From Nymphaea colorata (taxonomy: Eukaryota > Streptophyta > Magnoliopsida > Nymphaeales > Nymphaeaceae): a DNA stretch of 64,000 nt. The position numbers and the translations under genes are program-made. Where the stretch lies: assembly GCF_008831285.2 (NCBI RefSeq), contig NC_045143.1:5093503-5157502 (forward strand), in the 5' to 3' direction. Under the pieces are notes generated by a model, which saw nothing but the letters and a program-made list of their open reading frames with translations, did not search any database and was not told the origin of the DNA. This document shows, one piece after another, positions 22,921-57,196 of this stretch (its first letter is position 1; the number at the start of each line of letters is the position of its first letter).

Positions 22921-23243
22921 CAGCGAGATTTTTGATTCCTGTAAATCCTCCTACCCATTTCATTGACTCAGCAAACTAGATTACTTTTGCTGTTTATCCA
23001 CCGAAACCAGAGTAGGAACACGTTACACCCATCGAAAGACACTCGAATACTCCAAGATCTTTCTGCTTTGATCAGAGAACGGAACACCCACAAGTGACTC
23101 GAATACTCCGAGATCTCTTTCTTGAGGCTAGGAAACCTCTATCACCGTTCTCCTCTTCTCAATCACCTTCTTTACTGCCCGCATACCTTCTTCTCCCCTT
23201 CTAAAATTTCTGAAACCCATTCCGTCACTGATTCTTAGACAAG

Positions 23244-27700: not shown

Positions 27701-27896
27701 CGCCCACATCAGTTTCTCGAAATTTCTTACAATTTGTTCATTTGTATATGTTGGGGCCCCCTAAAATCTAAATTTCTTACCCCCTCAACAAAAGATCCCT
27801 GCCTCCGCCAGTGCTTAAATGATAATGAAATGGAATGGGTAGAATGAGCTTTCCCACACAGTGGCTAAAGATTCTGCTAAGGTTTAACCTCAAAGA
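24723..27896. other. Intergenic downstream of the phosphodiesterase gene
   Basis: The first few hundred bases should be 3' untranslated region. At about 26120-26225 there is an isolated copy of the foldback-family spacer ('tgcaattccaaaggcgaaat', 'gtgagttcctgcaagcaata'). The segment 26800-26965 pairs in inverse orientation with 22745-22920. No gene was recognised. Confidence 0.6.
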
Positions 27897-29735
27897 AAGA
27901 CAATTGTCAGCTTCAGGTAAGAAGATACAGAACAATAGATGTAACAAAGAATAATGAAGGATGAAATAAACATAGTAAAAGTAATATAAGAATTATTAAG
28001 GTTAGAAGCCTAGGAGCTATTTAATACAGATTAGCTCAGTTTGTTTTCCTTTCTATGTAGCTCAGTTTCATTTTTTAGTTCAAGCAATTCCGAAGGCAAA
28101 GCCTCCGTCAGGTGATTTCGTGCAGGCAATATATGTAATGATAGTTCTTAAGCTTCTGACCTTAATAATTCTTATACTGTTTTTAGTATATATCTTTATT
28201 TCATCTTTCATTGTTCTTTGTTGCATTCAATGATCTTTATCTCCTCACCTGAAGTTGGCAGTGCCCTTCCATTCTTATCAGGAATCATATTTCCTATCTT
28301 CATCAATATCTGAATCAGAACTGAAACCATGTAACGGTGAAGCCGCGAAAGACCATGGGAGACCATCGACCTCTTCAACTAGAGAGGAAGTTGGTGGTTC
28401 CATTGGTTGCTTCCTCTTTAGTTGAAGAGGTCAATGGGCTCCACTAGTTTTCTTCGGCTCAACCCCTACGTGGTTTTCCAGGTTTGCTTCAGATATTGAT
28501 GCCCCTTACAAATTGTTTCCGATGTATTGGAAGAACATTATCAGCTTCAAGTTAATTGAAAAAAAAAAACAATGTATGTAGAACATTATCAGCTTCAAGT
28601 TGATTGATACAAAAACAAAGTATGTAATAAAGAACAATGAAAAATGAATTTATTAAAAACAGTATAATAATTATTAAAGATAGAAGCCCAGGAGCTATCT
28701 AATATAGATTAGATCCATTTATTTTCCTTTTCCTATAGTTCACTTTCATTTTTCATTAATGCAATTACGAAGGCAAAACTTCTAGCAGATGAGTTCCTGC
28801 AAGCAATATATATAAAGTTAGCTCCTGGGATTCTGACCATGGTAGTTTTTATATTGTTTTTAGTACACTTATTTCATTTTTCTTTCTTTGTTTCATTCAT
28901 TTTTCGTTATCTTTTCATGACCGGAAGGTGACAATGCCTTTCATTCCATTAGAAACCATTTACTATCTGCGTCAATATCCGAACCAGACTTGGTAAACCA
29001 CGTAGCAGTGGAGCCGAAGAAAACTAGGAGAGCCTATCAACCTCTCCAACTAGAGAGAAAGCAACCAATGGATCCCAGCATTCTTCATTGAACAATCAAT
29101 GGAGGTGGCTCCAGAGGTTGGTTACTCTCTAGTTGAAGCTCCCCCGGTTTTCTTCAGCTCCATTGCTATGTGGTTTCTCAGGTTTGGTTTGGATATTGAC
29201 GCCCACTGGAAATGTTTCCTGATGAATTGAAAGTTATACAATTTCAACTTAAGGTTAGAAGATGAAACAATGGATATAACAATGAACAATGATAGATGAA
29301 ATTATAAAGATACTAAAAGCAGTACAATAATTAATAAGGTTAGTAGACTTATTTTCCTTTCTGTATATTTCATTCTTCCATTTTCTTCATTAATGCAATT
29401 CTGGAGGCAAAACCTCCAATTGGTAAGTTCCTCCAGGAAATACATATAAAGATAGCTCCTAGGCTTCTGACCTTAATAATTTGTCTATTGTTTTAACATC
29501 ATTATTTAACGCCAATTGGAAATGAAAGAGCATTGTCTACTTCATGTTGGAAGATAAAGTGCAACAGATGTAACAAAGTACATTGAAAGATGAAATAAAG
29601 ATACAAAAAACAATATAAGAATTTTTAAGGTTAGAAGCCTAGGGGACTTCTAATATAGATTAGCTCCATTTGTTTTCCTTTGCGTATGGTTCATTCATTA
29701 ATGCAATTCCGAAGGCAGAATCTCCAGCAAGTGTG
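27897..29735. repeat. Tandem array of foldback repeats, period about 640-680 bp
   Basis: Alternating inverted arms and conserved spacers are visible. A right arm ends near 28020; spacer; left arm from about 28143; an internal palindrome near 28370-28440 around CTCTTCAACTAGAGAGGAAG and its complement; right arm to about 28695; spacer; left arm from about 28820; right arm to about 29345; spacer; then a deleted unit from about 29455 to 29645 and a last spacer. The order left arm, right arm, spacer repeats at about 677 and 635 bp. There is no coding potential. It resembles a foldback element amplified in tandem. Confidence 0.8.
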
Positions 29736-30436
29736 TTGCTAAAGGAATAAAGAACCATATGACATTTTGAGTAATGTTGTCTTTCTCACTCTCCCTTTCC
29801 ATACACAAGAATAATTATTCACATGTTTCATTTGGGGAAGGGGACATAGACACCTTGCATTAAGCTGTCTCTATCTATTTGTATGAATGGTAATTGTATA
29901 GATTAGCAAATGAATTCACATTGTCATCCTTGGCATTTGCGCTATATAGTTAATTCCTTGAAATTGATCTCTATGAACCAATGAAAAGTAACAAATGTTA
30001 TATATATAAACTTCATGAAATTTTCCATTTTCAATCCTCTACTTGAGTTCTTTAATAGTTACACCAACCAATATAATTTCACTCGACTGTTTTTGCTTCA
30101 GACTACTAATGGCAAGATGACTGCATTTGTTCATCCATCAAGTTTGCTATCGTTTGGATTAATTCCTTGTGTACCAGTGAGTTGTTGTTTGTTACCAAAA
30201 GGTATGAGGGTTTACACAATACTTCTTTCTAAGGCAACGAAGAAGAAAGTTTGTCTTGCAATCAGTACTTTGAAAAAACAAAAACAACATATTCAAGTGA
30301 ACTTATACCGGCTGGAGAAACTATTAAAGAACCCAAGAGGAAGATTGAAAATGGAAATTTCATGAGGTTGCACAACATGTTCATGATCAACAGAGCACAA
30401 ATGAGAAGAAGGAAAAGAGAGCAGATGGTCCTTATG

Positions 30437-30610
30437 TTAGGGCTGCAATATTCAAATCTGTAACCTTTGCTCGAGACGATCATCAAACATGTATCCTTTG
30501 CTCGTGACGACCATCATCCTGAGCTGTATGTCGCGCAGTATGGCCATGAGCTTGTGTGCCTTCCTTCTTCATGAGGCCTCTTTTTTTGCAGAAGGTAACA
30601 TTGGGGTTTG
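30437..30610 (-). pseudogene. MADS-box exon 1 fragment, broken
   Basis: On the minus strand the sequence aligns with exon 1 of the MADS gene at 48889-49076. It keeps the equivalents of VTFCK, RGLMKK and FEYCSP separated by indels and stops. There is no complete MADS domain and no start codon. It continues into a non-coding stretch (30640-30770) whose inverted copy lies at 43390-43500, so it belongs to the rearranged relatives of the MADS locus. Confidence 0.8.
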
Positions 30611-31428: not shown

Positions 31429-31850
31429 CACTACAAAAAACAAAGGATTCACCGACCGCTGATGGAGATGAGTTGGTAAAAGTTTTAGCGACCTTTGAAG
31501 CGGTTGTCAGTGAAAACTATCATTGACATCTCAGCGCACAGATCTGTGTAGATATCTACACTTGACACATCATACACATCCAAAGACATCAGTAATAATA
31601 CTTTTACCAACATGTGATGGGCGTCGGTAAAACTTTTTATTGACATGCTGACGGATGTTGGTAATATATTTATGGATGCAAGTTCATGTGTCCGTGAAGA
31701 TTTCTTAATTTTTTTTTCTTAATCCACGAAAGACATAATTAGTTCCAAAAATCGGTGGAGATCTATAGTAATGTTATTTGTTGACGTGAAGAAACACTAA
31801 TTACAAACAAGAAAAATGATTTTGCTCGATCTATTGAAATAAAAACTGAT
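31429..31850. mobile_element. CACTA-like transposon end, decayed
   Basis: It begins CACTACAAAAAAC, like CACTA (En/Spm) termini. It is followed by subterminal motifs in both orientations (ACCGACCGC, GTTGGTAAAAGTTTTAGCG, GCGTCGGTAAAACTTTTT, GACGGATGTTGGTAAT). The part 31690-31850 recurs inverted at 43790-43945. No matching second terminus and no transposase were identified. Confidence 0.6.
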
Positions 31851-32039
31851 ACATGAAGAGAGAAAGAACCTTTCAAAATGAGAAGGCACTCAATTTTGCT
31901 AGACTAACTAAATAATAGAATTGCTTAGATGTTAGATCCAGTAGACAACCAAGAATGACATAGATGAAGATATTATATGCATAACCAGACAAAATGTGTT
32001 TTTACAAGCATATAAAATCAAAAGTATTTCAAGAAAATT

Positions 32040-32235
32040 GTAACACCTCAGAACTTTAGTCCCGTATCAAAGATTGTGAGGGATCTTCAATGGCTTATAA
32101 AGGGAGGCTTTAATGAGATGATTGTCCTGGTTCTTAGCCTTTCTGAGGTTGGAGCCGAAACTGCTAGGGGGCGGGTTGGGATCCGTCAAACCAGGGGCCC
32201 GAGCCCAAGAGTGGGTCGGGTTGTTATAAAAATAG
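32040..32235 (+). repeat. Dispersed repeat, copy 1 of 3 (LTR-like)
   Basis: The stretch starting TAACACCTCAGAACTTTAG and ending GGGTCGGGTTGTTATA is the reverse complement of two copies at 54937-55184 and 55262-55453. All share the 'gttccta..tt/aaggttaagaacc' and 'gattgtgagg' blocks. The full length of about 190 bp repeats cleanly, so it is a real element, possibly a solo LTR fragment or TRIM-like unit. Confidence 0.75.
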
Positions 32236-34260: not shown

Positions 34261-34613
34261 TCATTCCGTCAAAGATCCCCGCGCGTCGGTCGGACTCCGA
34301 CGCCGGGAAAAGGCGGAGCCGGTGGGGGGAGTGGAGTCCAGCTGTTTTGGCAGGACGGAAGAGAATGGAGGGAGGGGAAACCACAAAATGACTAAAATGG
34401 TTTTGCTTCTTCTTCTTTTAACTGCCCAACGACGTGTAAAGCAGCTCCACTCTCGAGGAAGAAGCAATGAAGTTTCATATGAACTTTCAAGAGATAAATT
34501 TAGACGAGCAAGAAGCCTCTTCATTAATTAGTTTTCTGGAACTTTCAGATGAGCAAGAGATAAATCTAGACGAGTTCAGATGAGCAAGAGATAAATTTAG
34601 ACGAGCAAGAAGC
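34261..34613. other. Left flank of foldback 2 with a local duplication
   Basis: GC-rich short frames occupy 34.2-34.5 kb with no recognised product. The words GAGCAAGAGATAAATTTAGACGAGC and TCTTCATTAATTAGTTTTCTGG (in pieces) are duplicated at about 34486-34541 and 34570-34637. The second copy leads into the foldback arm. Confidence 0.6.
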
Positions 34614-35417
34614 TTCTTCATTAATTAGTTTTCTGGACTAATTAATCATTTGCAAAGACGTAAACAAGATTTTCAAGCAGAAGCAGCGAGGAGACAAGAA
34701 AGGAAAAGAAAGAACAGGTAGCGGCATCATGGAGAAACCAAACCTTGGAAACGTGGCTAGTTTCTTCCTCGATCTGCTTGTCTTCTTCTCTGTAACGTTC
34801 AAGATCTCAACAGTTCTGGCGCTCCGACAGAAGGAGGAGGAGAAGATGAAGAAATAAGAAGCAGCAGGAAAGAAGGAAGGGACGGTGCGCCAGAGGAGCT
34901 CGTGTGGCAGAGGCTCTAGCATCGACCGTGGCATCCAGAAAACGACCTTGCGCTTCGGAGAATTATCGAAAACGCCATTCCACGGAAGATGCTCCGCCCG
35001 TGGAGGCGTTTTGGACCCCCAAAAGGAAAGGGGGTCTTCGATAATTCTCCGAAGCACAAGGGCGTTTTCTGGATGCCACGGTCGATGCTGAGTCGCTATA
35101 GAGCCCCCCGCCACGAACCTCCTCTGGCGCACCGTTCCTTCCTTCCTTCCTGCTGCTTCTTATTTCTTCTTCTCCTCCTCCTGCTGTGACTCTGTCGGAG
35201 CGCCAGAACTGTTGAGATCTCGAACATTACGGAGAAGAAGACCAGCAGATCGAAGTAGAGGAAGAAAATAGCCACGTTTCCAAGGTTTGCTTTCTCCACG
35301 ATGCCGCATTACCTATTCTTTTTTTCCTTTCTTGTCTCCTCTCTGCGTCAGCTTGAAAATCTTGTTTACGTCTTTGCAATTGATTAATTAGTCCAAAAAA
35401 CTAATTAATGAAGAAGC
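34614..35417. repeat. Long foldback 2: near-palindrome with arms of about 350-375 bp
   Basis: The left arm, about 34614-34965, and the right arm, about 35040-35417, are reverse complements at high identity by eye, with small indels. Shared blocks include TTCTTCATTAATTAGTTTT, GCAAAGACGTAAACAAGATT, CTTGGAAACGTGGCTA, TCAACAGTTCTGGCGCTCC, GGTGCGCCAGAGGAG, GCATCGACCGTGGCATCC and TTCGGAGAATTATCGAA. The apex (about 34966-35039) contains its own small hairpin. Each arm can be read as a short peptide with a hydrophobic stretch (NLGNVASFFLDLLVFFSV on the plus-strand left arm), perhaps a captured first exon. Confidence 0.9.
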
Positions 35418-40309: not shown

Positions 40310-41466
40310 AACAAATATGTTTGAATCTACGGGTGTTCCAACCCCCATAGCATGCTCCTCTGCTTTGTCTGCTCAAACTGTATCAAAATTTTATGATCTA
40401 ACTCTTTGTCACAGCATTGTTGAAACTCTTCAATACTCTACTACGACTTGCCCAGACATATTTTATGTTGTCAACAAGGTTTGTCAATGCATGCATCATC
40501 CTACTGATGCCTATTAGGATGCCGTAATCCTAAGATATTTGAAACATACTATTAATTATGGTCTTGTTATTAAACCTACCTCAGTTCTTAAAATTAATGG
40601 TTACAGTGATGCAAATTGGGCATGATGTCTTGATGATAGACGGTCTACAGGTAGATATGCAGTGTTTATTAGACTCAATTTAGTTTCATGGAGTGTTAAA
40701 AAGCAGTCAATTGTCTCTCATTCTAGCATTGAGGATGAGTATTGACCTATTGCCAATACTATTGCTGAAATCATGTGGTTACAATTTTCATTAAAAGAAT
40801 TTTGTGTTGCTCAATCACAACCTTCCATATATTGGTGCGACAATATCGGCGCTACCTATCTTGCAGCTCATTCTGTGTATCATAGTCGTAGCAAACACAT
40901 AGAAAATGACCTTCATTTTGTTTGAAAAAAAACTGGCTAAAGGAGATTTGAAAATTCAATACATCTCTTCCAAAAATCAAGTTGTTGATATATTAACTAA
41001 GTCACTTAGTAAGCAGCACCATCATCAAATAATTAACAAGTTCAATCTCATTATTAGAGCATTGAGCTTGTGGAGGGATGTTAACAGAAAATATCAAGAA
41101 AACTCTCAAAGTGAATTACTTGGAAGATGAAAAGTCATGTTTATTGAGGAATGAAAAGTCATGTTTATTGAGAGATAAAAAGTCATGTATTTTATGAGAT
41201 GAAAAATCATGTCTCATGAGATATGAGATATGAAGAGCCATGTCTCTTGGAAATTAGAAACCTTTTATATATCTCCTCTCCATATAAAAGAACCTCTCTA
41301 TCAAAGGAATGCAAGTGAGAAATAATAGAGCAGTGAGTCAGAAATGATAGAGTAGTGGATGTAAGCTTATTGGCTAAACCATTTTAAAAACTCATGGCCT
41401 TTTAAGAGTAGAAGGCCTAATTAGACAAACCATAAATTCGTAGGCTGGTGCTTTTTGTATCAAAAC
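40310..41466 (+). mobile_element. Ty1/copia retrotransposon 3' fragment: RNase H end plus LTR
   Basis: The plus strand reads a copia RNase H region with internal stops. Recognisable are YSDANWA followed by [42 protein letters not shown] and QVVDILTKSL. It ends with a purine-rich tract (GTGGAGGGA) and then the presumed LTR start TGTTAACAG near 41079. The LTR body at about 41126-41245 holds short tandem 'gatgaaaagtcatgt' repeats; its end near 41466 is an estimate. Integrase and most of the reverse transcriptase are absent. It is non-functional. Confidence 0.85.
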
Positions 41467-41715
41467 ACACGTGAAATAGCGCGTTCTTCTCATTCTAAAC
41501 CAGGCAATTCAACCATAAGCAAGTCGCTTACGCCCAAATCTTTAACAAGAACTCACCACGATCTACCAGGAGAGAAACCTCATAAAGAAGAACAAGGAAC
41601 CCAAAAAACTCCGCCTTTCTCACTTAAGTTTCCGCTTTTATGCCTTTGATGCTTAAAATATGATCAAACGAACGAAGAAATCCATTAAAAACAAGACCAA
41701 ATGTAACGGCATACC

Positions 41716-42175
41716 ACTTTCCGCTAATGATCTTCACAGACAGGAGAAGAGAGAAGAAGTGCTTGAGAACAAAACAAGATGGCAATGACAGCAGCTGCGA
41801 CTGCAATTCCGGCGATCACGGGACTGACACAGATCCGAAGGAAGAAGACGGAGGAGGAGGGGATTTGGTAGTTTGTGTAGGAGTAGAAGTCGTGGACGGA
41901 GTAGTCAGTGTAGGAGTAGTAGAGGACGGAGGGGGAGGCGGAGATGGGGTAGAAGGAGGGCTACCAGGCGGGGGAGTTAGGGACGGAGACGACGGAGGAG
42001 GCGAGGACGGCATTGCCAGAGACGATGGAGGAGGGGAAGAGGAAGGCGGCGGGGACGTGGAGTTGGGAGGAGGAGGAGAGGAAGCAGGGGCTGAGGGAGG
42101 AGAAGAGGAAGCGGGGGCTGGAGGAGGTGGAGGCGGGCTCGATGCAGGAGAAAGCACAAGTGGAGGGGTGGCCAT
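41716..42175 (-). pseudogene. PERK-like proline-rich N-terminus and membrane segment, frameshifted
   Basis: From an ATG at 42175 the minus strand encodes about 119 residues rich in Pro and Ser (MATPPLVLSPASSPPPPPP and repeats of SSPPPP) and stops after FGSVSVP. In a neighbouring frame, starting right at that point, a membrane-spanning segment SPVIAGIAVAAAVIAILFC follows. A Pro/Ser-rich ectodomain without signal peptide followed by a membrane helix is the layout of proline-rich extensin-like receptor kinases. No kinase domain follows: the copia LTR comes next. A truncated, frameshifted PERK exon 1 is the best reading; an unspliced proline-rich protein is the alternative. Confidence 0.55.
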
Positions 42176-42464
42176 CCCTAACGATGATGCTCATCTGTGC
42201 TATGCTCGCCGGTGACTCTTCGGCGCCGCTTTCCTTTAGTCGCTGAAAAAGGCAAGCACGGGTTGGCAAAAAAAAAAAAAGCTTTTGAAAAGTTGGTAAT
42301 TAAGAAAAACCACAACTACATTTTGCACTACTAATAAAATTGGCAGTCGGTTATTACTAAATGAGCTAAGTTAATGTGACAAAAAGATTAAAGGCACTTT
42401 AATTATTTTGCATTGGCAACCTAAACTACTTTCAATATATTAATACATAATACATTAAATATAT

Positions 42465-43150
42465 GAGGAACCATTTCTTATCTGCGTCAATACTCTAACG
42501 AGACCTTGAAAACCATGTAGTGGTGGAGCTGAAGAAACCTGGAGAGCCCATCAACCTCTCCAACAAAAGAAGAAGCGACCAATGCAGCCATTTCCTTTGG
42601 TGGTTTAATGAAGGATGCAAGGTTCCAAAGGTTGCTTCCTCTCTAGTTGTAGAAGTCGATGGGTTCCACTGGTTTTCTTTGGCTCCGCTGCAATGTCGTG
42701 TCCCAAGTTTGGTGCAGATATTGACGCCCATTGAAAATGGCTCCTGAACGAGCAGTAAAGATATCAGAAGCAATATAAGAATGATTCAGGTTAGAAGCAG
42801 AGGAGCTATCTAACATTGATCAGCTCCCTTTGTCTTACTTTATGTACAGTTCATTCTTTCAATTTTTCATTGATTCAATTCCGCAGGCAAACCTCCAGCA
42901 GGTTATTTCCTACAGGCAATACACATAAAAGACAGCTCCCAGGCTTCTGACCTTAATAATTCTTATATTGTTTTAAGTATCTTTATTTCATCTTTCATCT
43001 GTTGCATCCATTGATTTTTATCTAATCACCTGAAGTAGTGACTAGTGAGTGCCCTTTCATTCCATCTGGAAGCTTTTCCTATATGCTTCAATATCCAAAC
43101 CAGATCTAGAAAACCACATAGCGGTGAAGCTGAAGAAAACCACCGGTTTC
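42465..43150. repeat. Foldback family copy (right arm, spacer, left arm)
   Basis: It has the same building blocks as 27.9-29.7 kb: an inner palindrome around 42555-42670, a right arm ending GGAGCTATCT near 42810, a spacer in the common orientation (42825-42930), then a left arm beginning AGCTCCCAGGCTTCTGACC near 42935. Confidence 0.8.
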
Positions 43151-43389
43151 ATTCTTCTTGGGTTATTTTCCAAGTTCAACTTTTCAGGTGTAAATGGTAA
43201 GTGTGCTGGCCAAGGCGACAACTATGGAATGGTAATTACCATGAACATCATGGCATATCAAATATAGCAAGTGGTGGAAGACCATGCAAAAATCAAAGAG
43301 AGAATCTCAAGGGGAAAATGTCTAACTATCGTCATGGAAATTAAAAATGAGCAAGCATTATGGTAAAATCTTGTGACTTAAATGATGGT

Positions 43390-43960
43390 GTTATAATAGT
43401 CCTTAAAAATAAGAGGAAGCATTTATTGCAAGACAACTATATAATGGATTTCAGTACCACGCATTGGATTAAGGTCGACGGATGCATTTAGTTTAGTGGT
43501 ATAGAACCACAGTAATTCTGTTATCGTTTTTTTTTTTAATGTTTTGCATCAAACCGCAATGTCCACAGGAATTTTGACTGTAAAGATCATATAATCAGAG
43601 CACCATCTCAAATATCAAGGAAAAATTCATATTAGGATTGTTATCGGTACAACTTGAGAAGGAGACCTAAATATTGTATTAATAGAGTTAACGTTTTTTA
43701 AGGTTATTTTGAAAAGTAAAATGGTAATCTTTCTTGTTAATCGAATGATCATAACGATGGCAATCATAATATGAATTTTTCATGTAATACGATCAGTTTT
43801 TATTCAATAGATTGGGCACAATAATTTTTCTTGTTTGTAATTAATGTTTATTCACGTCAACAAATAACATCACTATAGGTCTCTACCGATTTTCGAAACT
43901 AATTATGCCATTCGTGGATTAAGAAAAAAAATATATAACAAATCTTCTTGGACGCATGAA
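43390..43960. repeat. Shuffled segments shared with 30.6-31.9 kb and with the MADS 3' flank
   Basis: 43390-43500 is the inverse of 30640-30770. About 43580-43670 matches the segment at about 44945-45045 (same orientation) and about 47340-47440 (inverse). 43790-43945 is the inverse of 31690-31850. The three pieces abut the inverted MADS copy. Confidence 0.7.
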
Positions 43961-44001
43961 ATTGCGTCGATAAATATGCTACCGATGTCGATAAATATAT
44001 T

Positions 44002-44434
44002 ACTTGAGCAACAGATTGAAGCATCAATGCATCGAGTCGGATCATGGAAAGCAGTCTCTGCATTTCTCTCTTTGGAACAAAGCTCAGACTCCTTTTACTG
44101 TAAGATTTCACAGATGTCGAACATAATAACCTGAAGATTTATCTAGTGTTATAAACCATATATTACAAACCATATGTGTTCAGTTCCTATATGAACTACT
44201 CCTGGTTTTCCTTTTTCTTTCATGGAACAATAGCCTGCAGCAGCAATCGACTATAACAGTTTGGAGCCCCAAATGCAGCGGGACCTCCTTTCTGCAGCAC
44301 CAACGTCGGTTAAGAACAGTTTCGAATCCCAAATGCAGTTGGGCCACTTTGCTTATGAACATGATCGCTACAGGGATTTCCCCCGTGAGCAATCACCTTT
44401 CGAATTCCAGAATACACACCACTTTTGGATGTAG
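44002..44434 (+). pseudogene. 3' partial copy of the MADS-box gene (K-box end and last exon)
   Basis: The plus strand carries the K-box tail LEQQIEASMHRV and a complete last exon at 44234-44434 (201 nt, stop TAG). The last exon is still open over its whole length and differs from the 66-residue C-terminus of the neighbouring gene at about 8 positions. The strong GTAAGA donor is followed by the same intron, but in this copy the base before the donor differs (CTGTAAGA rather than CAGTAAGA). There is no MADS domain exon upstream, so it cannot make a DNA-binding protein by itself. Confidence 0.85.
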
Positions 44435-45245
44435 TGTCTCAGTCGAACGGGACGCCTGTTCTATCCACGTTCATGTCAGTTTCTTTTTCATATGTACATA
44501 TTAATAAATGCCAAAGTTCATAGACAAACCAAGTCATTAAATGAATTCTCGTGATTGGGAAGTCTTTTGGTTGGATCTCTGTAAATGCCCGTCACCTTGA
44601 CATTTCATATCATAATATTGTATATGTCTGCAGATGATGAAATTCTGCGAAGCGGAAGAGCGAAAGCTGTTATCCAGATGATGAAATTTTCAATATTATA
44701 TGCGGAACGGACCAAGTGTGATATAATTGGACAATTTTTGTGCAATTACGCTTGAAAGATTAAATTTTAGAGTCCTTTTTGTTGTATTTTTGAAATTCTG
44801 ATTGCACGATTCGATTCTTATGGTCCAAATTATACTTGAAGGATCCTTCTTTTAAACAGTTCATTCAGACGAGGATATATGATTTTTGAAAAGCATTAAT
44901 GATCGATTAACATTCTAAAGCATCTGAATATTTGTCTGTAAACATCTTACAATCGGATCACCATCTCAAATATCAAGCACGTAGTTACATGAAAAATTCA
45001 TATTAGGATTGCTGTCGGTTCAACTTTAGAAGGCTCTGGAATTGCCTACAAATGCAAATGTCTAAAAAGTCAGCTGGCTTTCACGAATTTAGCTTTCGCC
45101 TTTTTTTTTCAAATAATTTCTTTCAATTATGAAGAACAAATGGTGCGAACAAATGGTGCATAGTGCAACCAGTTGGATTGGGTTGGTGTGTAAACCCATG
45201 TTCCATGTCCTCAATTCGATTCTTGGAGTACTATCCTGATGGACT
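44002..45245. repeat. Left arm of a 1.2-kb inverted duplication of the MADS 3' half
   Basis: This stretch is the reverse complement of 47150-48349, with modest divergence and small indels. It starts at ACTTGAGCAACAGATTGAAG (inside the K-box exon), runs through the final MADS exon and about 800 bp of 3' flank, and ends near the 'ctatcctgatgga' block before a (CT)n tract. The copies are head to head on either side of a loop of about 1.9 kb. Confidence 0.92.
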
Positions 45246-45805
45246 CTCTCTCTCTCTCTCTCTCTCTCTTGTCACCAACACCACCCTCAACCAAAAAAAA
45301 AAAGAACTATATTTGAGAAGAAAATTGAGCATATTTCACACTTAATTACCCGTTTTAATTCAGGGTGTGAGATTTGGGAGGGGACAAACCGACATCAAGA
45401 ACATGATAAAATAAACATGCCTATGAAAACTACTTGTAACCATTTTTTGAGAGCTCAAATAACACAAAAGAGATAAAGCCTAAAGTGGCAAAATATATGT
45501 CATGGCTTTTTAAATGGCCAAAATGTCTGCTACCTTCTTTTCTTTTCTTTTTTTAACCATCCATCTCAATGAATGATTTATTCTCTTTTAAGTATTTGAG
45601 CTCTTGTAAACTAGTTACAAGTAGTTTTCATAGACATATTTATTTTATCATATTCACTTTATGATGTCGGTGTATGCCCTCTCTCTCACACACACATTCT
45701 GAATCAAAACAGCCAAGTGTGAAATATACTCATTTATTTTCCATCTCAAAAGCCGAGCGAGAGAGACAGAGAGAGGAAAGGTGTTGGTTGAGAGAGAGAG
45801 AGAGA
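45243..45805. repeat. Foldback nested in the loop of the MADS inverted duplication
   Basis: The inner arms, about 45383-45470 and 45583-45672, are reverse complements (AACCGACATCA, TATGAAAACTACTTGTAAC, GAGCTCAAATA). Similarity continues outward through TATTTCACACTT to the (CT)n tract at 45245-45270 and the (GA)n tract near 45790. The total is about 560 bp with a core loop of about 110 bp, consistent with a MITE or foldback element. Confidence 0.8.
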
Positions 45806-46099
45806 GAGAAAGAGGGAGCTGATAAAATGGGAATCAATACCAAAATTTGGAGACAAGAAGTACCCTAGTTACAATAACAACCGCAAAACATAACAAAAAA
45901 GACGAAATATACAATACAATGTACAGTAAAACAAAATAAGAGGGGTGAAGAGGAAATGAAGAGACAGAGCAACACAATCACCTAGCCGTGGATGAAAGAC
46001 GACGTCGTAGCCGAATGACAAAATGTATATCCCCTTGAACAAGATTAGCCACACCTCCAGAGATGACCCCAGGAAACCGTCAGGTGCAGAGAAAGACAA

Positions 46100-47110
46100 A
46101 AGATAAAAAAAGACGAATGGAGGGTGGATCTGCTACAACGGACAACCCTGACGGATGCCATGACCTAGACAAAAGAAATCGCTTCACAACCCATTGAAGG
46201 AGACCGCTAGCTGGGCCCTAGTGACAAGCGAAATGATCTACTGCCTAAACGATAGGCCAAAAGCAAGAGTGAGGAGGTGAGAAAGAAATTCCAAACTAAC
46301 CGAATCAAAAGCCTTATAGATGTCCAACTTAAGGATGAAGGAAGGAAGATGCAAACAGTATAGAGAATGAACAACCTCATTGGCGAGGACTACAGCGTCC
46401 TGCAAATACCGACCCTTGATGAAAGCAACCTGGAAGAGGTTAATGATAGACGGTAATCTGTAAGGAAAGCAACTTAGCAATAATCTTATAAGGAGTGCTT
46501 AAGATGAAGATGAGGTGAAAGTGAGTGACGTCTGTAGGGTTAGAACGCTTAGACACCAAGACACAAACAACTTGATTAAATTCCTTAAGAAAGATGGAGT
46601 TCGAGGCAAATTCATCACAAAACTCAAACACATCAGCGCTACAAGCCTCCCAAAAGGTGCAAAAAAATTCAATAGGAAAACCATCAATGTTGGGCGCCTT
46701 ACCAGAGCCAAGGGCCCAGACAACATTCTTGATCTCTTGGTGCAGGAAAGGTCACTCAAGAGAGATCACACACGAGACAGAGAGGTGAAAATCCGGCAAC
46801 GGGGCACGGAAGCGAAGGGGCTTAGAATAAAAATCTCGAAAATGCGGTCAAAGCCGAAAAAATATCATCACCAAGAAAAACCCTGTGTCCGATAACTATA
46901 GACTGGAGCAATGTTTGAGGCGCCTTTGAGAGACAGCAAAGTGGAAGAATCTAGAGTTCTGGTCTCCATACGAAAGCCAACCCAACCTAGAACGCTGTTG
47001 TCAATAGATAGATTCCCTAATCCACCACTTCTGAGCAAGACGACAAAAAAATGAGAAGACTGATTTGTAGAAAGATGAGAGAGAGAGAGACAGATAAGAG
47101 GGGGCAAAAA
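46100..47110 (-). mobile_element. LINE (non-LTR retrotransposon) fragment, frameshifted
   Basis: Read on the minus strand across several frames, it shows the spacer before reverse transcriptase (GWLSYGDQNSRFF), then WALGSGKAPNIDGFPIEFF, PTDVTHFHLIF, LSTPYKIIAKLL, QVAFIKGRYLQDAVVLANE, LKLDIYKAFDSVSLEFL and a piece of GHGIRQGCP. Endonuclease and the 3' end of the element are missing and the frame shifts repeatedly. It is a dead plant L1-type LINE in the loop between the MADS arms. Confidence 0.88.
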
Positions 47111-47149
47111 ACCTTGCCGTAGCCATCAGCCAACAACTCTCAATTCAAA

Positions 47150-48349
47150 CCAACACTCCATCAAGATAACATACTCCAAGAATCGAACTGAAGATAGGGA
47201 ACATGGGTTTACACGCCAACCCAGTCCAACATACATCATTTGTTCTTCATAATTGAAAGAAATTATTTGAAAAAAAAAAGGCGAAAGGTAAATCGTGAAA
47301 GCCAGCTGACTTTTTAGACATTTGCATTTGTAGGCAATTCCAGAGCCTTCTCAAGTTGCACCGACAGCAATCCTAATATGAATTTTTCATGTAACTATGT
47401 ACTTGATATTTGAGATGGTGATCCGTTTGTAAGATCTTTACAGACAAATATTCAGATGCTTTAGATTGTTAATATCATTAATGCTTTTCAAAAATCATAT
47501 ATCCTCGTCTGAATGAACTGTTTAAAAGAATTCCTTCAAATATAATTTGGACCATAAGAATCGAATCGTGCAATCAGAATTTCAAAAATACAACAAAAAG
47601 GACTCTAAAATTTAATCTTTCAAGCGTAATTGCACAAAATTGTCCAATTATATCACACTTGGTCCGTTCCCCGTATAATATTGAAAATTTCATCATTTGG
47701 ATAACAGCTTTCGCTCTTCCGCTTCGCAGAATTTCATCATCTGCTGACATATACAATATTATGATATGAAATGTCAAGGTGACGGGCATTTACAGAGATC
47801 CAACCAAAGAGTTGCCAGTCATGAGAATTCATTTCCTGACTTGGTTTGTCTATGACCTTTGGCATTTATTAATATTTACATATGAAAAAGAAACTGACAT
47901 GAACGTGGATAGATCTGGCTTCCCGTTCGACTGAGACACTACATCCAAAAGTGGTATGTATTCTGGAATTCGAAAGGTGATTGCTCACGGGGGAAATCCC
48001 TGTAGCGGTCATGTTCATAAGCAAAGTGGCCCAACTGCATTTGGGATTCGAAACTGCTTTCAACCGACGTTGGTGCTGCAGAACGGAGGTCCGGCTGCAT
48101 TTGGGGCTCCAAACTGTTGTAGCCGACTGCTGCTGTTGGCTATTGTTCCATGAAAGAAAAAGGAAAACCATAAGTAATTCACATAGGAACTGAACACATA
48201 TGGTTTGTAATACATCTTCAGGTTATCATGTTCGACATCTGTGAAATCTTACTGTAAAAGAAGTCTGAGCTTGACCCAAAGAGCGATATGCAGAGACTTC
48301 TTTCCATGATCGGACTCGATGCATTCCTGCTTCAATCTGTTGCTCAAGT
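47150..48349. repeat. Right arm of the inverted MADS duplication
   Basis: It is the reverse-complement partner of 44002-45245. It contains the last exon and most of the K-box exon of the MADS gene (minus strand) plus about 790 bp of 3' flank. The arm ends at 48349 within the K-box coding sequence, so the breakpoint lies inside an exon. Confidence 0.92.
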
Positions 48350-49076
48350 TGGTTTAAATTGTTTATGCTGAGCGTCTCGAGATCCTCTCCCATGAGATGC
48401 CTTATGCTTGCGTGCAGCATTTCCCTCTCATTCTTCAAACTAGCCATCTCTCTTGTCATCTGTTTTACGAAATACCAAATGCATTACTTTTACCATAGAG
48501 ATGAAGTTAAAGGCCAATTAGAAGGCGAGGAGGACAACCTGATCCTCATGCACTCGATACAATTGTTCATCAGCCCATAAATCTCCCGTGTATGTGTCTA
48601 GCAAGGAACGGGAAGATGATGCACCTCCCCCTCGCTGATCAATCGGCAATCCTCCCGTGTATCTGTCAATAATTTGCTTCATGCTACAAGTTGCATGAAA
48701 TTAGTTCAACAACTAAAACCATCATAAAGGATGACTGTAGACTTCATGGATTTACGAAAAGCGGGTGATCTGGTTTACTAGCTTTTACATTTTCTTTTAA
48801 TTAAATTTCATCATCTTCATGGGTTCGCCGGAAAAGGTGTTCGGGGAAAGCATGAACGAGAAAAAAAAGATTAAAAAGAAAGAGAAACCTTGTGCTCGGG
48901 CTGCAATACTCGAACATCTTCCCTCTGCTTGAGAAGACGACAATGCCGAGCTTTACGTCGCAGAGTATGGCGAGCTCCTGTGCCTTCTTCATCAGGCCTC
49001 TTCTTCTCTTGCAGAAGGTCACGTCGCGGTGCTTGGGGTGCTCGATCCTCTTGATGTCAATCTTCCTGCGCCCCAT
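47939..49076 (-). CDS. MIKC-type MADS-box transcription factor, Bsister-like, unusual compact gene
   Basis: This is a DNA-binding MADS protein; Bsister members act in ovule and seed-coat development. Exons: 48889-49076 (complete MADS domain, [12 protein letters not shown] to FEYCSPST), 48539-48683, 48298-48459 (or to 48253), and 47939-48139. All join in phase to 231 or 246 aa. Exon 2 starts SMKQIIDRY, and the K-box reads [20 protein letters not shown]; both fit Bsister genes, though the assignment is tentative. Three oddities: exon 2 is 145 nt against the usual 79 or so and holds a repeated D-[RT]-Y-T-G module 23 residues apart; canonical exons 3 and 4 (62+100 nt) are fused as 162 nt; and the usual exons 5 and 6 completing the K-box are absent. 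Two in-phase 5' splice sites exist. It may be active, or a decaying gene. Confidence 0.78.
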
Positions 49077-50944
49077 ATTAATTTGCTCTCTTTCTTCTCT
49101 GCTACTGCTGCCTCCAGCTTGCTTCTTCGTCTGGCACGACCGAAGGATACGGACGTACCAAGAGCAAGGTTCTACTCTCTATATATATATGCATCTCTCC
49201 TCTTCTTGCTACTCGACCGCCCACGGGATTTCTCGAAATCCTAACTTCGCCATTAAGTTTACTCGCAGGGCCGGTATTTGTTATGAACATTAATAGCCAG
49301 AGAGGGAGAAGGCGCATGAGAAGATGCGTCTGTTGCATGTGATGGGGTTATTCACCATATTCGTGTCTTTAAATTGATTTTTTTTCATTTTGTCTTGCAA
49401 AACGTGCTCTGTTTCATATCTTTTTAAAGGGGTTTCGCCATTTCATTCCCGGCACACCGACATTGTGGGCTCCAAGAAACTACCTGACTGATCATAAGCC
49501 ATGATAAGCCGACATCGTATATGGCGAATATAACCAGCTTCGGGCATTCATACCAATCTTGTGTGTTCGTTTTAAACTGTCAAATTCCTTCTTTCTGTTT
49601 CTCTGTATTGGCTGAAGGGCTATTTGTTTCTCTGCATTGACCGAAGAGCTTAACATGGCTGGTTGAGTTGATTGTGTTAATGTGCTGTCGTCAGTTCAAT
49701 TCTTAGTTCAATTCTTATATTAAGCCTATGAAGCCAAGTTGGTGCTTTCTCTTCCCTCTCAGAATTAAAACACCTTATATACACTTATTTTGCATGGCAA
49801 AATTCATACAAGAGGGAGAGAGAGCTAATTGGGGCCGCCGATGTTGAGGATAGGGAATGTTCTGAAGGCATTCATTCATGCAAAGGGGAGTGAGCCCATG
49901 CGGAAACCAGAGAAAGAAAGGTGTCAGTAGTCCAGTACTAGCTTTTGGGGGGTTGAAGAAGAGCTGTGGAAGAAGCTTCTTGTTATTGCCAGAGAAGGAA
50001 ATGTGAGTCCGTCGTCGGTTAGTGAATGAAGCCCGGCGGCCGGTGCACGTCCCTTTCGCACACCACATGCGTTGCCATCTTCTTCCACTTCCTCTTTCCT
50101 TCCCTGTGAAGAAACTTTGAGAGCACAGTGGCATGAGGCTTTAAGCTCGCTAGAAATGGTATGAAAACGTAACCAAGCTTTTCCACAATTAATCAAACGC
50201 CTGAATAAGTAAGTTCTTCATTTAATAAAACCTTATCATTTTTCAAGTTTTGCACCTCATTGCGAGTCATGTCATGCAAACTGAATCTGAAAAACAAAAC
50301 AACATACATTTTAAAAAAATCTCCACAAAATTGTGCAACATTTGGTCAATTCGCAGTCCTGAATGAACCAAAAACATTTCAAAATTATTATTTTTTTAAA
50401 TAACTAAGAACGTAAAATCTTAAACTATTTAAAAAAAATAATTGAAAGCTGACACATGGCACCACCAATAAAGCATTGAATCAGACCGGTTTGTCACTGA
50501 TTCGGTTCGAATCAGCTGATTCTGACAACATTGTATGGTGTTACACCTGATTTGAATTCAAATCAAAAGAAATCTTAAAATTGAGGGACATAAGGGTTCA
50601 TTCTTTTTGCATCTACATAATTATTTTATCGGTCAATTAAAGAAGGCCAAGAGGCCGTCCAAGTATAATATTATAAATATAAAAGGCCTGCTAGAGATGA
50701 AAACATTGATGGCAAGTGGATGAGATATATGGGGTTGATGTGGGCCACTGCCCACACCAACCCATCAAGATTTTTATTATAAAAATTCAAAATTACATTC
50801 TAATGACCTAAAAATGATGTAATGCGCCCACATTTAACCTTGGGCTGGTAGATTGAGTGTTCCTCAGCCAAAAATTTCAAGTTCCCTCAATCAGGTCGTG
50901 TATAAGCCAATATTTTATTTGAGTAGTTAGAGGGACCACTAATT

Positions 50945-50994
<50 letters not shown>

Positions 50995-52525
50995 GACTGG
51001 TGTGGACAACTCAGCCGCTGGCTAGATTGATATTCAGATTGTTGTTCCAGTACAGGTCAAAGAAGAGGTGCTGAAAGTCTGGATCCGTTAACATATTTTA
51101 AGGTCAATTGTTTCTGATTAAATGAAGAAGGTGCATGTGGTCACGTCGGCCGCGGGCTGCGGCCAACTGGGCCCGACAATAATTGTTGGATTTTATATAA
51201 TCTTATATCAATGTTCGGATCCTTTTAAGACTTCATTTTTTTCTAGTTAGTTTTGGAATCATGGTGAGGAAGTCGCTTAGGTGTGACAGGTTGGTTTACG
51301 ATGACTTCTCATTTTCTTTCTAGCGTTTCAGCTATATAATATGGGGAGGTTAATATATTTGATTTGGATGTTATATTCGATTGAACTGTATAAAAAAGTT
51401 GGATATAAAAAAAAAAGATTTCGAATTAAGAATTTAGTTTGGAAATAAGAAATGACATTTGATCAGACCCAGAATTAAATTCTAGCTTAAGTAAATATCG
51501 ATTGAATTTGGAATCATATTCAGATAAAATATAGTTGTAAATAAATATAATATACTCAATGTGGTAGGTTTAGATTCAATTTAAAAATTGGCTTCAGATT
51601 AGGTTGTTCAGATTACGAATTTGGATTTTGGATTCAGATGTGATGTATATTTTTTTCATCAAAATTTAAATCCAAATATATAGATATCCTAAAAATTAGA
51701 TATGATAAAACATATATTCGTCTAAAATCAGATTCATTGACATTATTAAGAATGTAAAGAAAACGACGAGCGTAAGTCCCTCTTTTCCCTTTGCCCCAAG
51801 AGTCGAATAATCTCAGTTACCAGAAAATTTTATTACCGAAAGCTTGTTTTTCTGAACCATTCAAAGCGTCGTGGTAGGCAAAGGTGGACTGCAGGAACGC
51901 AGAATTTGAAAAAATAGGGTCAAAGGCGGCCGGCACGAAAGCAGCCATTGTGTGCGTTGTCTGATGTCTGAACGTGGAGCGAACTTTCTTCCTGTCTGGA
52001 TTTCACTTTTCAAATTCTTCTGTGCCTCTTGGTTGTGCCAGAAGTGTGGTATGAATGCCGCTTTCTATGGTAAAAGTGCTTGTTTCAGTGAAAGGATCCA
52101 AAGGAAGGATCCTGTAAATTGTGGAGCACGGAACCACCAGCCAGATAGAGTTATTTCCTCGGGTGGTTGTTTTTTGCGTAGGTTTTTCCCTTGGTGGTGC
52201 CATCTCCGGCAGGTGTCCGCTATCTTTGAGTTAAAAGTCCTGCCCTTCAGTGAAAGCTGGTCCCTTGCGAAGCTCAGAGTTCATTTCATGGAGTTACGGC
52301 CAGGATGGCTATAATGCTATAATTGGTTTCTAATATGATTCTTGAGTTTGTGTAGATAGATCAAGGTGGACATCTTGTGCACTGAGAACTGCTCGTCTTC
52401 TAAGTTGGATCTTGTGGGTTCTGTCATGTCTGCCTGTTCACTCTAAAGAGATGCGCATTTGGGCTGTCCATTTGTTGGGTGTTCTGTGAGTTTCTGAGGG
52501 AGACGTATTGTTGGTGGAAGGGGAA
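49077..52525. other. Intergenic between MADS gene and GINT1
   Basis: MADS promoter side: a short TA run near 49177. Frames at 49.8-50.2 kb (minus) have no recognised product. A (TA)n tract lies at 50950-50988. 51.36-51.74 kb is the 'gattcagat/aaatatcgatt' degenerate repeat. 51.95-52.5 kb is the probable GINT1 leader: it has an open frame of 120 codons (51952-52314) but no family motif, and it is more likely untranslated. Confidence 0.55.
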
Positions 52526-55500
52526 ATGGGGGAGAAGGGCGTGAAGAGCTCGAATTCAATGGGTTTAGGGTGTTGTGGGTGGAGGTGGGCGTGCTCGAGT
52601 GGGAGTTCCTTCTCCTCCTCGAATTCTGTAATTCTTCTGGGATTCCTTCTGGTGCTTGCCACCTTCGGTTCTCTGTTTGCTTGGTTGACAATCTCCCCCT
52701 TTGGGAGGCCTGGTACAGGGTTAGTCGGTTGTCGTGAAGACGGCGAAGGATCATGGTCGATTGGAGTTTTTTACGGGAAGTCCCCATTCTCTCTTCGGCC
52801 GATTGAAATGGTATATACAAATCCTCTTCTTTCTTGTGAGGGCATCTGGTTGGTCCTTAGTCCGTTTCTTTTGATGGCGGTGCAGGAAACTCTAGAGGCC
52901 AATATGAGCTCCGCATGGCCGGTTGCGAATCCGGTGTTTACTTGTGCTTCTGTGGCAGACTATAGATACCCGAGCAACTTTGTAGCAGACCCTTTCCTTT
53001 TTATTGAGGTTAGTTTTCCTGATCATGATTGTTAATTTGCAGATAATGAATTGTTTCTTGTATTAGTTGATGGATTTTTGTAAGCAATTTGATGTTAACA
53101 TTAGAAAATGATAATTTGCTAGTAATAGCAACTCTGCAAAGACAATAGCTTTCTGCTCTTCCTTGTAGCAGAATTTCATGATTTCGAAATTATTACATGG
53201 ATCGTTAAGGTGACAATCAGTTGCAGAGGGCCATGCGAAGAGTTTCTAGTCATCAGAATCCATTTAATGACATGGTAAACCATGATGTGGGGGTCCCATT
53301 ACAATTGGGTTTGTCCAGATTGTCAACTTTGGCATATATAATCATTTATATATGGAAGAGAAACAGGACAGTGGCGTGTGATCTTGCTGGATAGATGGGT
53401 CGTGTTCGACTCAGACATTACTACATCCAATGAAAGTTTCGTTCTGCAAAGATGCAGGTAATTAAAAATCAGATTGTTCATCATTAAATTGGGTAAGGGT
53501 GCCATCAGGTTAGTGGTCACATGTAGGATCAGAGTGGTTATAGATTTTCCTTTTCATTTGGAGAAGAGATTTAAGGTTCATGGCTGAAGATTACTACAGG
53601 TTTAATACCTGTATTTTGTACCTTTACCATAAATCTGACGTCATGAAAAAAGCTTACCTACTGAATAAAAGAGAGCTCCAAAGGAGTTTTACATCATAGG
53701 CACCAAAGCAGGGCCATGGCCAGCATAGGACTCTTCATTCTGTATTTGCAACGTCCAAATGGATGGTGGCTTCTTATTCAAGTAATTTAAAAATAACTAT
53801 GGTTTGAAGGGAACTTACCCATTTCTGCTTGACCACAACCAACAGTGGAGTCATGCTCAGAGCAGTGTGTTTTACATTTTCCCCATAGTACTTGATCAAA
53901 ATTTTGGTAATTTTGTATCTGAGTAAGTCCGTAAATTTTATAATGATACCTGCACATGTTTAATTGAAAGAGAAAAACAAACTGCATCTCACATTTTCAA
54001 CTTGTGGTAATCTAGGCGTTGTACTATGGAGTATTTCATTCTAATGTTTAAAGACATGGATATGCAATTGGATCCATGTTATTGCACCCATCAGCGAAGT
54101 AGCTTTGTAGGATGAGAAGTGCTTTAATTAGAACTTCTCGAAGACATGGTTCCCATGTAAAGCTCGTAAATTTACTTCTAGTAGGACAGATAGGTAAAAG
54201 AATTTGTTATGAAATTGCCCACGGAAAGAGTATATATGCTTGACATGTTCCTGTTTTGATGAATGACTGTTGCATTTGATCCTTGACAGGTCCTTTTTCT
54301 TGCCACAGTTCTCTATTATGTAAAAGCTGATTCTTTTTGTTAAATGTATTTTCTCTGTGCAGCACTCTCCTACTCAAAGAGGATATAAACTTTATATGTT
54401 TTTTGAAACAAAGAATTCTCTTACGATGCAAGGAGATATTGGCGTTGCCCTTAGTGTTGACAAAGGTGCAACATGGAAGTATTTGGGAATTGCCTTAGAT
54501 GAAGAATGGCACCTTTCTTATCCATATGTATTCGATTATCAGGGCCAAGTAAGTTGTCAGCCATTTACTAAACCAAATTTTTCTTGTTGGTAAGATTTTT
54601 TGGTGCCTACTATGTGTTCAGGAAACGCTTGTATATGAAACTAAAATGACCAGTCATGGTCAAAGATATACGTACTCTTTTAACAATTATCAACTATATT
54701 AAAGATACTACTTATTTTCTTTTTCAACAGTTTAAGTACTTTTTTCTTTCTTAATCTTTATTCAGCAAAAAAAAATTGTTACGTACGTACTTGCCTTTCC
54801 TATTTCTCCAAATTTTTATATTTCTAATTTTTTACCAAAACCATATATGATCGAGATCTTGTCCTTATGAGATGTTGGCAGCAAGACACTTAACATGATA
54901 CGGTCTTCTCACTGTGGTTTGGAGCTGGGAACATCTATAACAACCCGACACACTCCTAAGCTCAGGCCCCTGCGGTTTGGAGCTGGGAACATCTATAACA
55001 ACTTGACCCACTCCTAAGCTCGTGCCCCTCGTTCGGCGGATTCCAATCCACCCCCTAACAGTTTCGGCTCCAGCCTAAAAAAAAGTTAGGAACCAGGACA
55101 ATCATCTCATTAATGAGCCCCATTTATAAGTCATTGAAGATTCCTCACAATCTTCAATACGAGACTAAACTTTTAGGGTGTTACAATCCACCCTCCTTAA
55201 GGAACACGCGTCTGCGCTTGTGGGACCTTAGGTCCGAGTGTTGAAACTGCTCTGATACCACTATAACAACCCAACCCACTCCTGAGCTCGGGTCCCTGGT
55301 TCGGCGGATCTCAACCCGCCCATAACAGTTTCGGCTCCAGCCTCAAAAAGGTTAAGAACCAGGACAATCATCTCCTTAATGTCCTCCCTTTATAAATCAT
55401 TGAAGATTCCTCACAATCTTCAATATGAGACTAAACTTTTGGGGTGTTACAATAACAGCTAAATCTGATTTATCTTTACTGAAAAAGTTCACATCTTGAT

Positions 55501-57196
55501 TTTTTTTTTTGTCATGCAGATATACCTGATGCCTGAAGGTAATAGAAAGGGAGATCTTCGGCTTTATCGTGCATTGGAGTTTCCTCTTCAATGGACTTTG
55601 GAGAAGGTGCTTATAAAGAAACCTCTAATTGATGCCACAATGATCCAGTATGAAGGGTATTACTGGATTTTTGGTTCTGATTTCACACGTCATGGTACAG
55701 AGAAGAATGCAGAGCTTGAAATTTGGTACAGCAGGTCACCACTTGGTCCCTGGAAACAGCATAAGCAAAACCCAGTTCACTCTAGGGACAAAAGTTTGGG
55801 TGCTCGAAATGCTGGAAGACCTTTCATATATGAAGGTTCCTTGTATCGAAGTGGACAGGACTGTGGTGAAACCTATGGCCGAAGAGTTCGTCTGTATAAA
55901 GTGGAAATTCTCAGCACAGAAAATTACAGAGAAGTAGAAGTGCCATTAGGGATTGAGGAGTCAAAAAAAGGCCGTAATGCATGGAATGGTATTAGGTACC
56001 ATCACTTGGATGCTCAACAGCTTCCATCTGGTGACTGGATTGCATTAATGGATGGTGATCGTGTCCCTTCTGGTGATTCAAGCAGGAGGCTGTTCATTGC
56101 CTTTACAGGACTGACTTTTGTTGTTCTTCTCATAATAGCCGTTGGATTTTCGGTGGGATGTGTAATGTGCATGCTTCCAACAAGCTGGGGTTTAGGTTCT
56201 AACAGGAGAAATGATACTATATGTGTTTGGGTTCAGCCACAATTTAGCTTGAAGCTGCGAAAATGTTTTATATTGTTTAACAGAACCAGTTCATCTCTTC
56301 AGGGTCAATTAAGGCTAAACACATGCTTGGGCAAATCCATTCTGTGTGTACTTTCCACTATAGGGGTAGTAGCAGTGTGTGTGGTTGTTTCGTTTCTCTT
56401 TGGAGGAAATGGTGCTGAAGAGGCATACCCCTTTAAAGGGGAGTACTCACAGTTCACAATGCTGACAATGACATATGAAGCTCGTCTGTGGAATCTGAAG
56501 CTCTATGTAAAGCATTATTCACGATGTGCTTCTGTTAGAGAAATTGTAGTAATTTGGAACAAAGGTAATCCTCCAGATGAAAGGGAATTTGACTCTGCAG
56601 TTCCAGTTCGTATTCGTGTGGAGAGACTCAATTCTTTGAACAACCGCTTTAAAGTTGATCCTCTCATAAAAACTAGGGCAGTTCTTGAACTTGATGATGA
56701 TATAATGATGACATGTAATGACTTGGAAAGAGGGTTCAAGGTTTGGCGAGAACACCCTGAGAGACTTGTAGGTTTCTATCCTCGACTTGTTAATGGGAAG
56801 CCCTTGCAGTACAGAAATGAGAGGTATGCTCGAAAGATGAATGGTTACAACATGATATTAACTGGAGCTGCCTTCATGGATGGTGAAATTGCATTTAAGA
56901 GGTATTGGAGTGAAATGGCAAAAGAAGGAAGGGCCATGGTTGATAAGTTCTTCAACTGTGAAGACGTCTTGATGAATTTTATTTATGCTAACTTGAGTAC
57001 TGCAAGAACTGTTGAGTATGTTCATCCTGCTTGGGCAATAGATACTTCAAAGTTTTCAAGTTCTGCCATTAGTCGGGACACAGGAGCACATTACAAGAAA
57101 AGGACCAACTGCTTGCTCAAATTCACTGATCTGTATGGTCCTCTCCCAGCCAAGGAATGGGAATTTGGTATGCGTCTGGATGGTTGGGATGCATAG
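52526..57196 (+). CDS. GINT1: Glucosamine inositolphosphorylceramide transferase, GT64 family, complete
   Basis: GINT1 adds an N-acetylglucosamine-type sugar to glycosyl inositolphosphorylceramides in the Golgi. Four exons, 52526-52810, 52886-53008, 54363-54548 and 55520-57196, join in phase to 756 aa, close to the known plant protein. Layout: cytosolic N-tail; membrane segment about 34-55; an N-terminal beta-propeller-like domain with EGSWSIGVFYGKSPF, NFVADPF, YMFFETKNSLTMQGDIG and GRNAWNGIRYHH; two more hydrophobic segments at about 389-413 and 472-493; then the GT64 domain with DxD motif LELDDD (590-592) and NCED (677-680). It ends LDGWDA. The ATG at 52526 is preferred because the frame upstream offers only TTG. 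Intron 3 has taken up repeats (54916-55453). It appears functional. Confidence 0.95.
54916..55453 (-). repeat. Two copies of the 190-bp dispersed repeat in GINT1 intron 3
   Basis: The copies at about 54937-55184 and 55262-55453 share TATAACAAC, GGCGGAT, CAGTTTCGGCTCCAGCCT, AACCAGGACAATCATCTC, GAAGATTCCTCACAATCTTC and GGGTGTTACAAT. The block GCGGTTTGGAGCTGGGAAC is doubled at 54916 and 54969. They are opposite in orientation to the copy at 32040-32235. The stretch between them ('ggaacacgcgtctgcgct', 'ctctgataccactataac') looks like retrotransposon leader sequence. Confidence 0.85.

Follow-up and report, generated by a model that had tools for sequence, protein, structure and literature searches.

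In the 64,000-nucleotide stretch of the Nymphaea colorata genome analysed here (contig NC_045143.1, positions 5,093,503 to 5,157,502; hereafter the window), a predicted MIKC-type MADS-box gene on the minus strand is faced by an inverted copy of its own 3' half, with a loop of about 1.9 kb between them. The structure is real and of an ordinary type, whereas its silencing potential is unproven. We give a probability of about 65% to the reading that the copy is an ordinary partial inverted duplicate, decaying beside its parent gene, and we consider any hairpin RNA made from the locus by read-through to be an occasional product at most, with no evolved function.

Structure of the inverted repeat

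BLAST self-comparison of the window aligned 44002-45243 (plus) with 48349-47157 (minus) over 1245 columns, with 1127 identities and 55 gap columns (E = 0.0), placing both arms within a few bases of where a preliminary description of this DNA had put them. That description had also proposed counting substitutions from an arm alignment: leaving gaps aside, 63 of 1190 bases differed (5.3%), and sequence outside both arm ends could not be aligned. With a minimum length of 150 columns and E no higher than 1e-10, the window contained 21 inverted matches, of which this pair was the longest; the remaining 20, six of them single palindromes, were 67.9-87.0% identical, which makes inverted repeats in general a common feature of this DNA. 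The components of the locus were as follows.

44002..45243, plus strand (sense): left arm, a truncated and frameshifted copy of the MADS gene 3' half; identity to 48349-47157 at 1127 of 1190 aligned bases, MADS-domain match absent, exon tail of 98 nt against 97 nt
44002..44099, plus strand: left arm, end of the K-box exon, 98 nt against 97 nt in the right gene, giving a frameshift
44234..44434, plus strand: last exon of the left arm, frame of 66 codons, stop retained
45244..45818, no strand assigned: loop part 1, imperfect palindrome resembling a miniature inverted-repeat transposable element (MITE), with CT/AG runs at its borders; self-inverse match 65.6% over 604 columns
45819..47149, minus strand, ends approximate: loop part 2, probable decayed reverse-transcriptase remnant of the long interspersed nuclear element (LINE) type, frames broken; RVT_1 match and motif-like stretches
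47157..48349, minus strand: right arm, MADS gene 3' half and 3' flank, from self-comparison and gene model
47939..48139, minus strand: MADS gene last exon with stop, preceded by a 113-nt GT-AG intron
48253..48459, minus strand: MADS gene exon 3, partial K-box, from gene model and Pfam
48539..48683, minus strand: MADS gene exon 2, I region, flanked by GT-AG introns of 205 and 79 nt
48889..49076, minus strand: MADS gene exon 1, MADS domain, from gene model and Pfam

The gene lies on the minus strand and the left copy reads in sense on the plus strand, so that the 3' ends of both face the loop and the pair is tail-to-tail (convergent). The head-to-head order given in the preliminary description is therefore ruled out, as both copies run into the loop.

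The gene model of the right copy comprised four exons on the minus strand (49076-47939), with an uninterrupted frame of 246 codons and three GT-AG introns of 205, 79 and 113 nt, the splice sites having been placed by hand from the sequence. As had been claimed for the gene containing the right arm, the MADS domain was complete: the SRF-TF profile (PF00319) matched over all 48 of its positions (E 2.2e-21, 75.5 bits against a cut-off of 26). A K-box (PF01486) followed the I region (E 3.1e-16, 59.7 bits against a cut-off of 30), covering only profile positions 7-67 of 93, with the end missing. On these matches, a MADS domain with a partial K-box after an I region, the right copy is classed as a MIKC-type MADS-box gene. 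The 66 residues of the last exon had no Pfam match. The K-box exon (48253-48459) was intronless and its K-box match cut short; several K exons are usual in other MIKC genes, and this one may have been reduced, or its exon model may be in need of transcript support.

Subfamily was approached by pairwise identity to 15 MADS domains. The closest was rice OsMADS29 (42 of 60 residues identical), followed by three at 36 of 60. OsMADS29 is a B-sister protein, and a B-sister-like identity of the Nymphaea gene is a lead, not a result. A PDB search returned 20 sequences, all of them MADS proteins (MEF2, SRF, MCM1, SEP3), and gave no subfamily information.

Comparison of exons bore out the view that the left arm duplicates the end of the K-box, the last exon and the 3' flank. 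Of the K-box exon it kept the final 98 nt, followed by intron 3, the last exon including the stop, and 3' flank; exons 1 and 2 and most of exon 3 were absent, and there was a +1 (1-nt) frameshift. A search of the arm for a MADS-domain match found none. Judged by its homology to the gene together with these disabling changes, the left copy is a duplicated pseudogene. Retention of intron 3 indicates duplication and not retroprocessing, and a frameshifted copy without a MADS domain is not expected to yield MADS protein. Whichever reading of the locus holds, it is a caution for gene annotation, as the left last exon on its own appears intact.

A loop of 1.9 kb is present (approximately 45244-47156), as described previously, but it is not plain unique sequence, consisting instead of the MITE-like palindrome and a probable LINE reverse-transcriptase remnant. 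The RVT_1 match at 46238-46498 (E 2.5e-6, 27.8 bits) fell under the 29.6 cut-off, and 46440-46751 and 46868-47125 had no Pfam match. Two motif-like stretches of loop part 2, FILKLDIYKAFDSV and GIRQGCPL, share one frame with a stop between them and resemble the motifs FxLDIxKAFDxV and GxRQGxPL, respectively.

Origin of the pair and potential for silencing

Two older pieces of MADS sequence lie on either side of the pair.

30462..30607, minus strand: older relic of MADS exon 1 with broken frames; 71.7% over 152 columns, E 2.6e-18
53141..53430, minus strand: older relic covering the stop codon of a MADS copy with its 3' untranslated region; 68-69% in two blocks (53141-53276 and 53323-53430)

The second is antisense, between two GINT1 coding exons at 52490-53032 (GINT1_N, E 4.1e-29) and 55469-57193 (GINT1_N, E 2.9e-96; glycosyltransferase 64, E 1.2e-63). 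With these relics, four MADS pieces in differing stages of decay lie within 23 kb, a grouping that we interpret as a small MADS cluster with decaying copies; at 68-72% identity, the relics at 30.5 and 53 kb fit earlier duplicates that have decayed. The most probable history would begin with an inverted duplication, local and incomplete, that copied the 3' half of the MIKC-type gene and left a pseudogene fragment tail-to-tail with its parent in a cluster where other MADS copies had already decayed. The probable old LINE piece and the MITE-like palindrome may have come to lie between the copies by insertion, or as part of the rearrangement.

If plants accumulate between 1.5e-9 and 6.5e-9 substitutions per site and year, the 5.3% difference would put the age of the arms, very roughly and only as a scale, at 4-18 million years. 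The 53-kb relic could serve as outgroup over one stretch only, where 13 ungapped differing sites were divided into five changed on the left, six on the right and two that could not be assigned, a split suggesting that neither arm has been specially kept in that stretch. Estimates of selection on the last exon (12 differing bases) are uninformative because the changes are so few: nonsynonymous (dN) and synonymous (dS) divergence were 0.052 and 0.111 by NG86, 0.053 and 0.079 by LWL85, and 0.074 and 0.045 by YN00.

Some observations count against simple decay. The last exon of the left copy retains its open 66-codon frame. Divergence is also uneven, with a 300-base stretch (approximately 44.6-44.9 kb) holding just six mismatches, as low as in 23 of 5000 shuffles, and a longest identical aligned run of 130 bases, as long as in 67 of 5000. 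This could reflect gene conversion or constraint on the stem, but we give it little weight; the alignment used for the shuffle test was misplaced at 45087-45100, which inflated mismatches elsewhere (73 against the 63 of BLAST).

The alternative that fares best, although we regard it as somewhat unlikely, is an active hairpin silencing locus, in which read-through would give a long hairpin that Dicer-like enzymes would cut into small interfering RNAs (siRNAs) against the MADS messenger RNA (mRNA), after the pattern of soybean GmIRCHS and rice Lgc1. Such behaviour is possible only if the locus is transcribed through both arms, either on the minus strand, starting at the MADS promoter, or on the plus strand, starting to the left of 44 kb. 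The previous claim that a transcript through both arms would form a long hairpin agrees with the minimum-energy fold of the 4348-nt minus-strand RNA (-2536 kcal/mol, no shuffled control), in which 1143 of the 1193 right-arm bases paired with the left arm. The stem contained 21 perfect stretches of at least 21 bases, totalling 839 bp and offering 419 perfect 21-mer positions. A long, near-perfect inverted repeat of gene sequence of the Lgc1/GmIRCHS type is thus present, with tail-to-tail 1.2-kb arms in the same geometry. Silencing by inverted gene repeats in other plants, to which the preliminary description had appealed, is known from tail-to-tail cases (PMC10647759 and PMC13051633), GmIRCHS being a repeat of 1,087 bp (PMC13051633). 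In tobacco cells, transcription is found to run across transfer DNA (T-DNA) terminators, and this can cause silencing by way of inverted repeats (PMC6196474).

Two features speak against an active hairpin locus. The loop is 1.9 kb long, compared to 78 bp in GmIRCHS. In each of the two copies an AATAAA lies 68 nt past the stop codon, so ordinary mRNAs are expected to end before approximately 60% of the arm and the whole of the loop; a hairpin RNA would arise only where transcription of the parent ran past its own poly(A) site and on through the loop. The arms did not stand out in the footprint expected (though not strictly defining) of long-term RNA-directed methylation, namely an excess of transitions and loss of CpG. 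Arm differences comprised 31 transitions and 32 transversions, a ratio of 0.97, and in ten other repeat pairs of the window, not all independent as some come from one repeat family, the ratio lay between 0.79 and 5.00 (no more than 1.06 in five pairs, 1.12 in a sixth, 1.42-5.00 in the others). Observed/expected CpG was 0.77 and 0.74 in the arms, 0.56 in the window, 0.36 and 0.39 in two blocks resembling transposable elements, 0.28 and 0.63 in the loop, 0.50 and 0.34 in two gene exons, and 0.82 in the 5' half of the MADS gene. The footprint is not discriminating, as it does not separate the arms from other repeats of the window.

A more elaborate form of silencing appears distinctly improbable: a working natural hairpin in which the frameshifted 3' copy, its central stem kept alike by conversion with the gene, would turn leaky read-through of the B-sister-like MADS gene into siRNAs limiting both that gene and related ones, a feedback by which a reproductive regulator would restrain itself. 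We think it very unlikely that the pair is a MIRNA or siRNA gene caught early in its birth. For young Arabidopsis MIRNA loci, MIR824 among them, the proposed origin is an inverted duplication of protein-coding sequence, with heterogeneous siRNAs from a large fold-back as the first stage (PMC1790633), but a search of 41000-52000 against Rfam found no family at the gathering threshold, a weak objection given that Rfam would lack a family that is new. An assembly or library artefact, whether a fold-back chimera or collapsed haplotypes, is scarcely credible: long-read libraries and assemblers are known to fail at inverted repeats, but a chimera should give near-identical arms, and the 63 substitutions and 55 gap positions between these arms, as well as the non-alignable outer flanks, argue against one.

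Should the arms yield small RNA, the natural silencing repeats of tail-to-tail type known in plants would gain a MADS gene, and the locus could then illustrate how a plain inverted duplicate passes into a small-RNA gene. If the locus is silent, it would be a useful negative, as a 1.2-kb, 95% identical inverted gene pair would indicate that geometry alone is insufficient.

Surrounding sequence

The locus lies in repeat-rich sequence. To the left of the left arm, 43175-43562 matched 31052-30598 (460 columns, 67% identical, 77 gaps), a match ending no more than about 10 bases from the exon-1 relic at 30.6 kb. We rejected 43175-43562 as a second MADS unit, as its overlap with MADS homology amounts to only about 10 bases and the adjoining 43569-43662 and 43792-43983 match other repeated sequence.

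A second strong palindrome occupied 34612-35417 (842 columns, 83% self-complementary; arms of 354 aligned bases with 25 differences), and an open frame inside it (34641-35159) had no Pfam match. Related repeats at 20309-21040, 27892-29749 and 42452-43145 occurred in both orientations, were approximately 67-85% alike, and contained internal palindromes. A repeat of approximately 190 bp was found as a tandem pair (54993-55187 and 55261-55453) and one inverted copy (32037-32228); between the copies at 32.0 and 55.2 kb, transitions outnumbered transversions 20 to 4, unlike in the MADS arms. CACTA-type ends were also considered: the sole exact-start match was CACTACAAAAAA at 31429, and the scan gave 12 matches against 9.56 expected, which is no evidence for such an element. 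A single 496-codon open frame at 23232-24719 matched type I phosphodiesterase/nucleotide pyrophosphatase (PF01663, E 2.8e-108), and ten further open frames of the window had no Pfam match at E up to 0.01.

Comparison with known inverted gene repeats

A B-sister gene with an inverted 3' copy was not found in the titles and abstract openings of the open-licence papers listed by literature searches. One close parallel is rice Lgc1 (GluB4/GluB5), a dominant mutant allele in which two glutelin genes lie tail-to-tail and which arose by a 3.5-kb deletion between them; silencing has been attributed to it (PMC10647759). Both loci have tail-to-tail inverted genes from which read-through double-stranded RNA (dsRNA) is possible, but Lgc1 pairs two glutelin genes and has silencing attributed to it, whereas one member of the Nymphaea pair is a frameshifted 3' fragment and silencing is hypothetical. 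Soybean GmIRCHS, a tail-to-tail pseudoCHS repeat with a 78-bp spacer, a portion of a DnaJ-gene promoter and detected dsRNA (PMC13051633), is similar in being an inverted repeat of pseudogene sequence, approximately 1.1 kb long, near a related gene. The short spacer, promoter portion and detected dsRNA set it apart from our locus, with its 1.9-kb loop.

Other systems share single features with the pair. In rice, two hairpin-capable pairs of paralogous pseudogenes have mapped small RNAs, one with a 185-nt duplex and a 1,283-nt loop (PMC2708354); the neighbouring inverted copies and kilobase-scale loop are alike, but the stems there are short and small RNAs have been mapped, compared to a stem of approximately 1.2 kb here. 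Among MADS-box genes, the W of Salix herbacea carries, in its sex-linked region and apart from the autosomal PISTILLATA (PI) genes, seven pairs of partial inverted copies of PI exon 1, proposed to silence the full gene (PMC13064059). Those are likewise partial inverted MADS-box copies, but they are seven exon-1 pairs located apart from the PI genes, whereas Nymphaea has a single 3'-half copy adjoining its parent; there too, silencing is a proposal only. In Arabidopsis, the MIR824 arms are similar to parts of AGL16, a MADS gene whose transcripts rise in dcl1-7 and hen1-1 mutants (PMC1790633), making an inverted duplicate of MADS sequence a possible source of small RNA in both plants, although MIR824 yields a microRNA with AGL16 as its target. 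Silencing by inverted gene copies is thus already an established idea, MADS genes included, and if the Nymphaea pair were to act in this way it would be another case.

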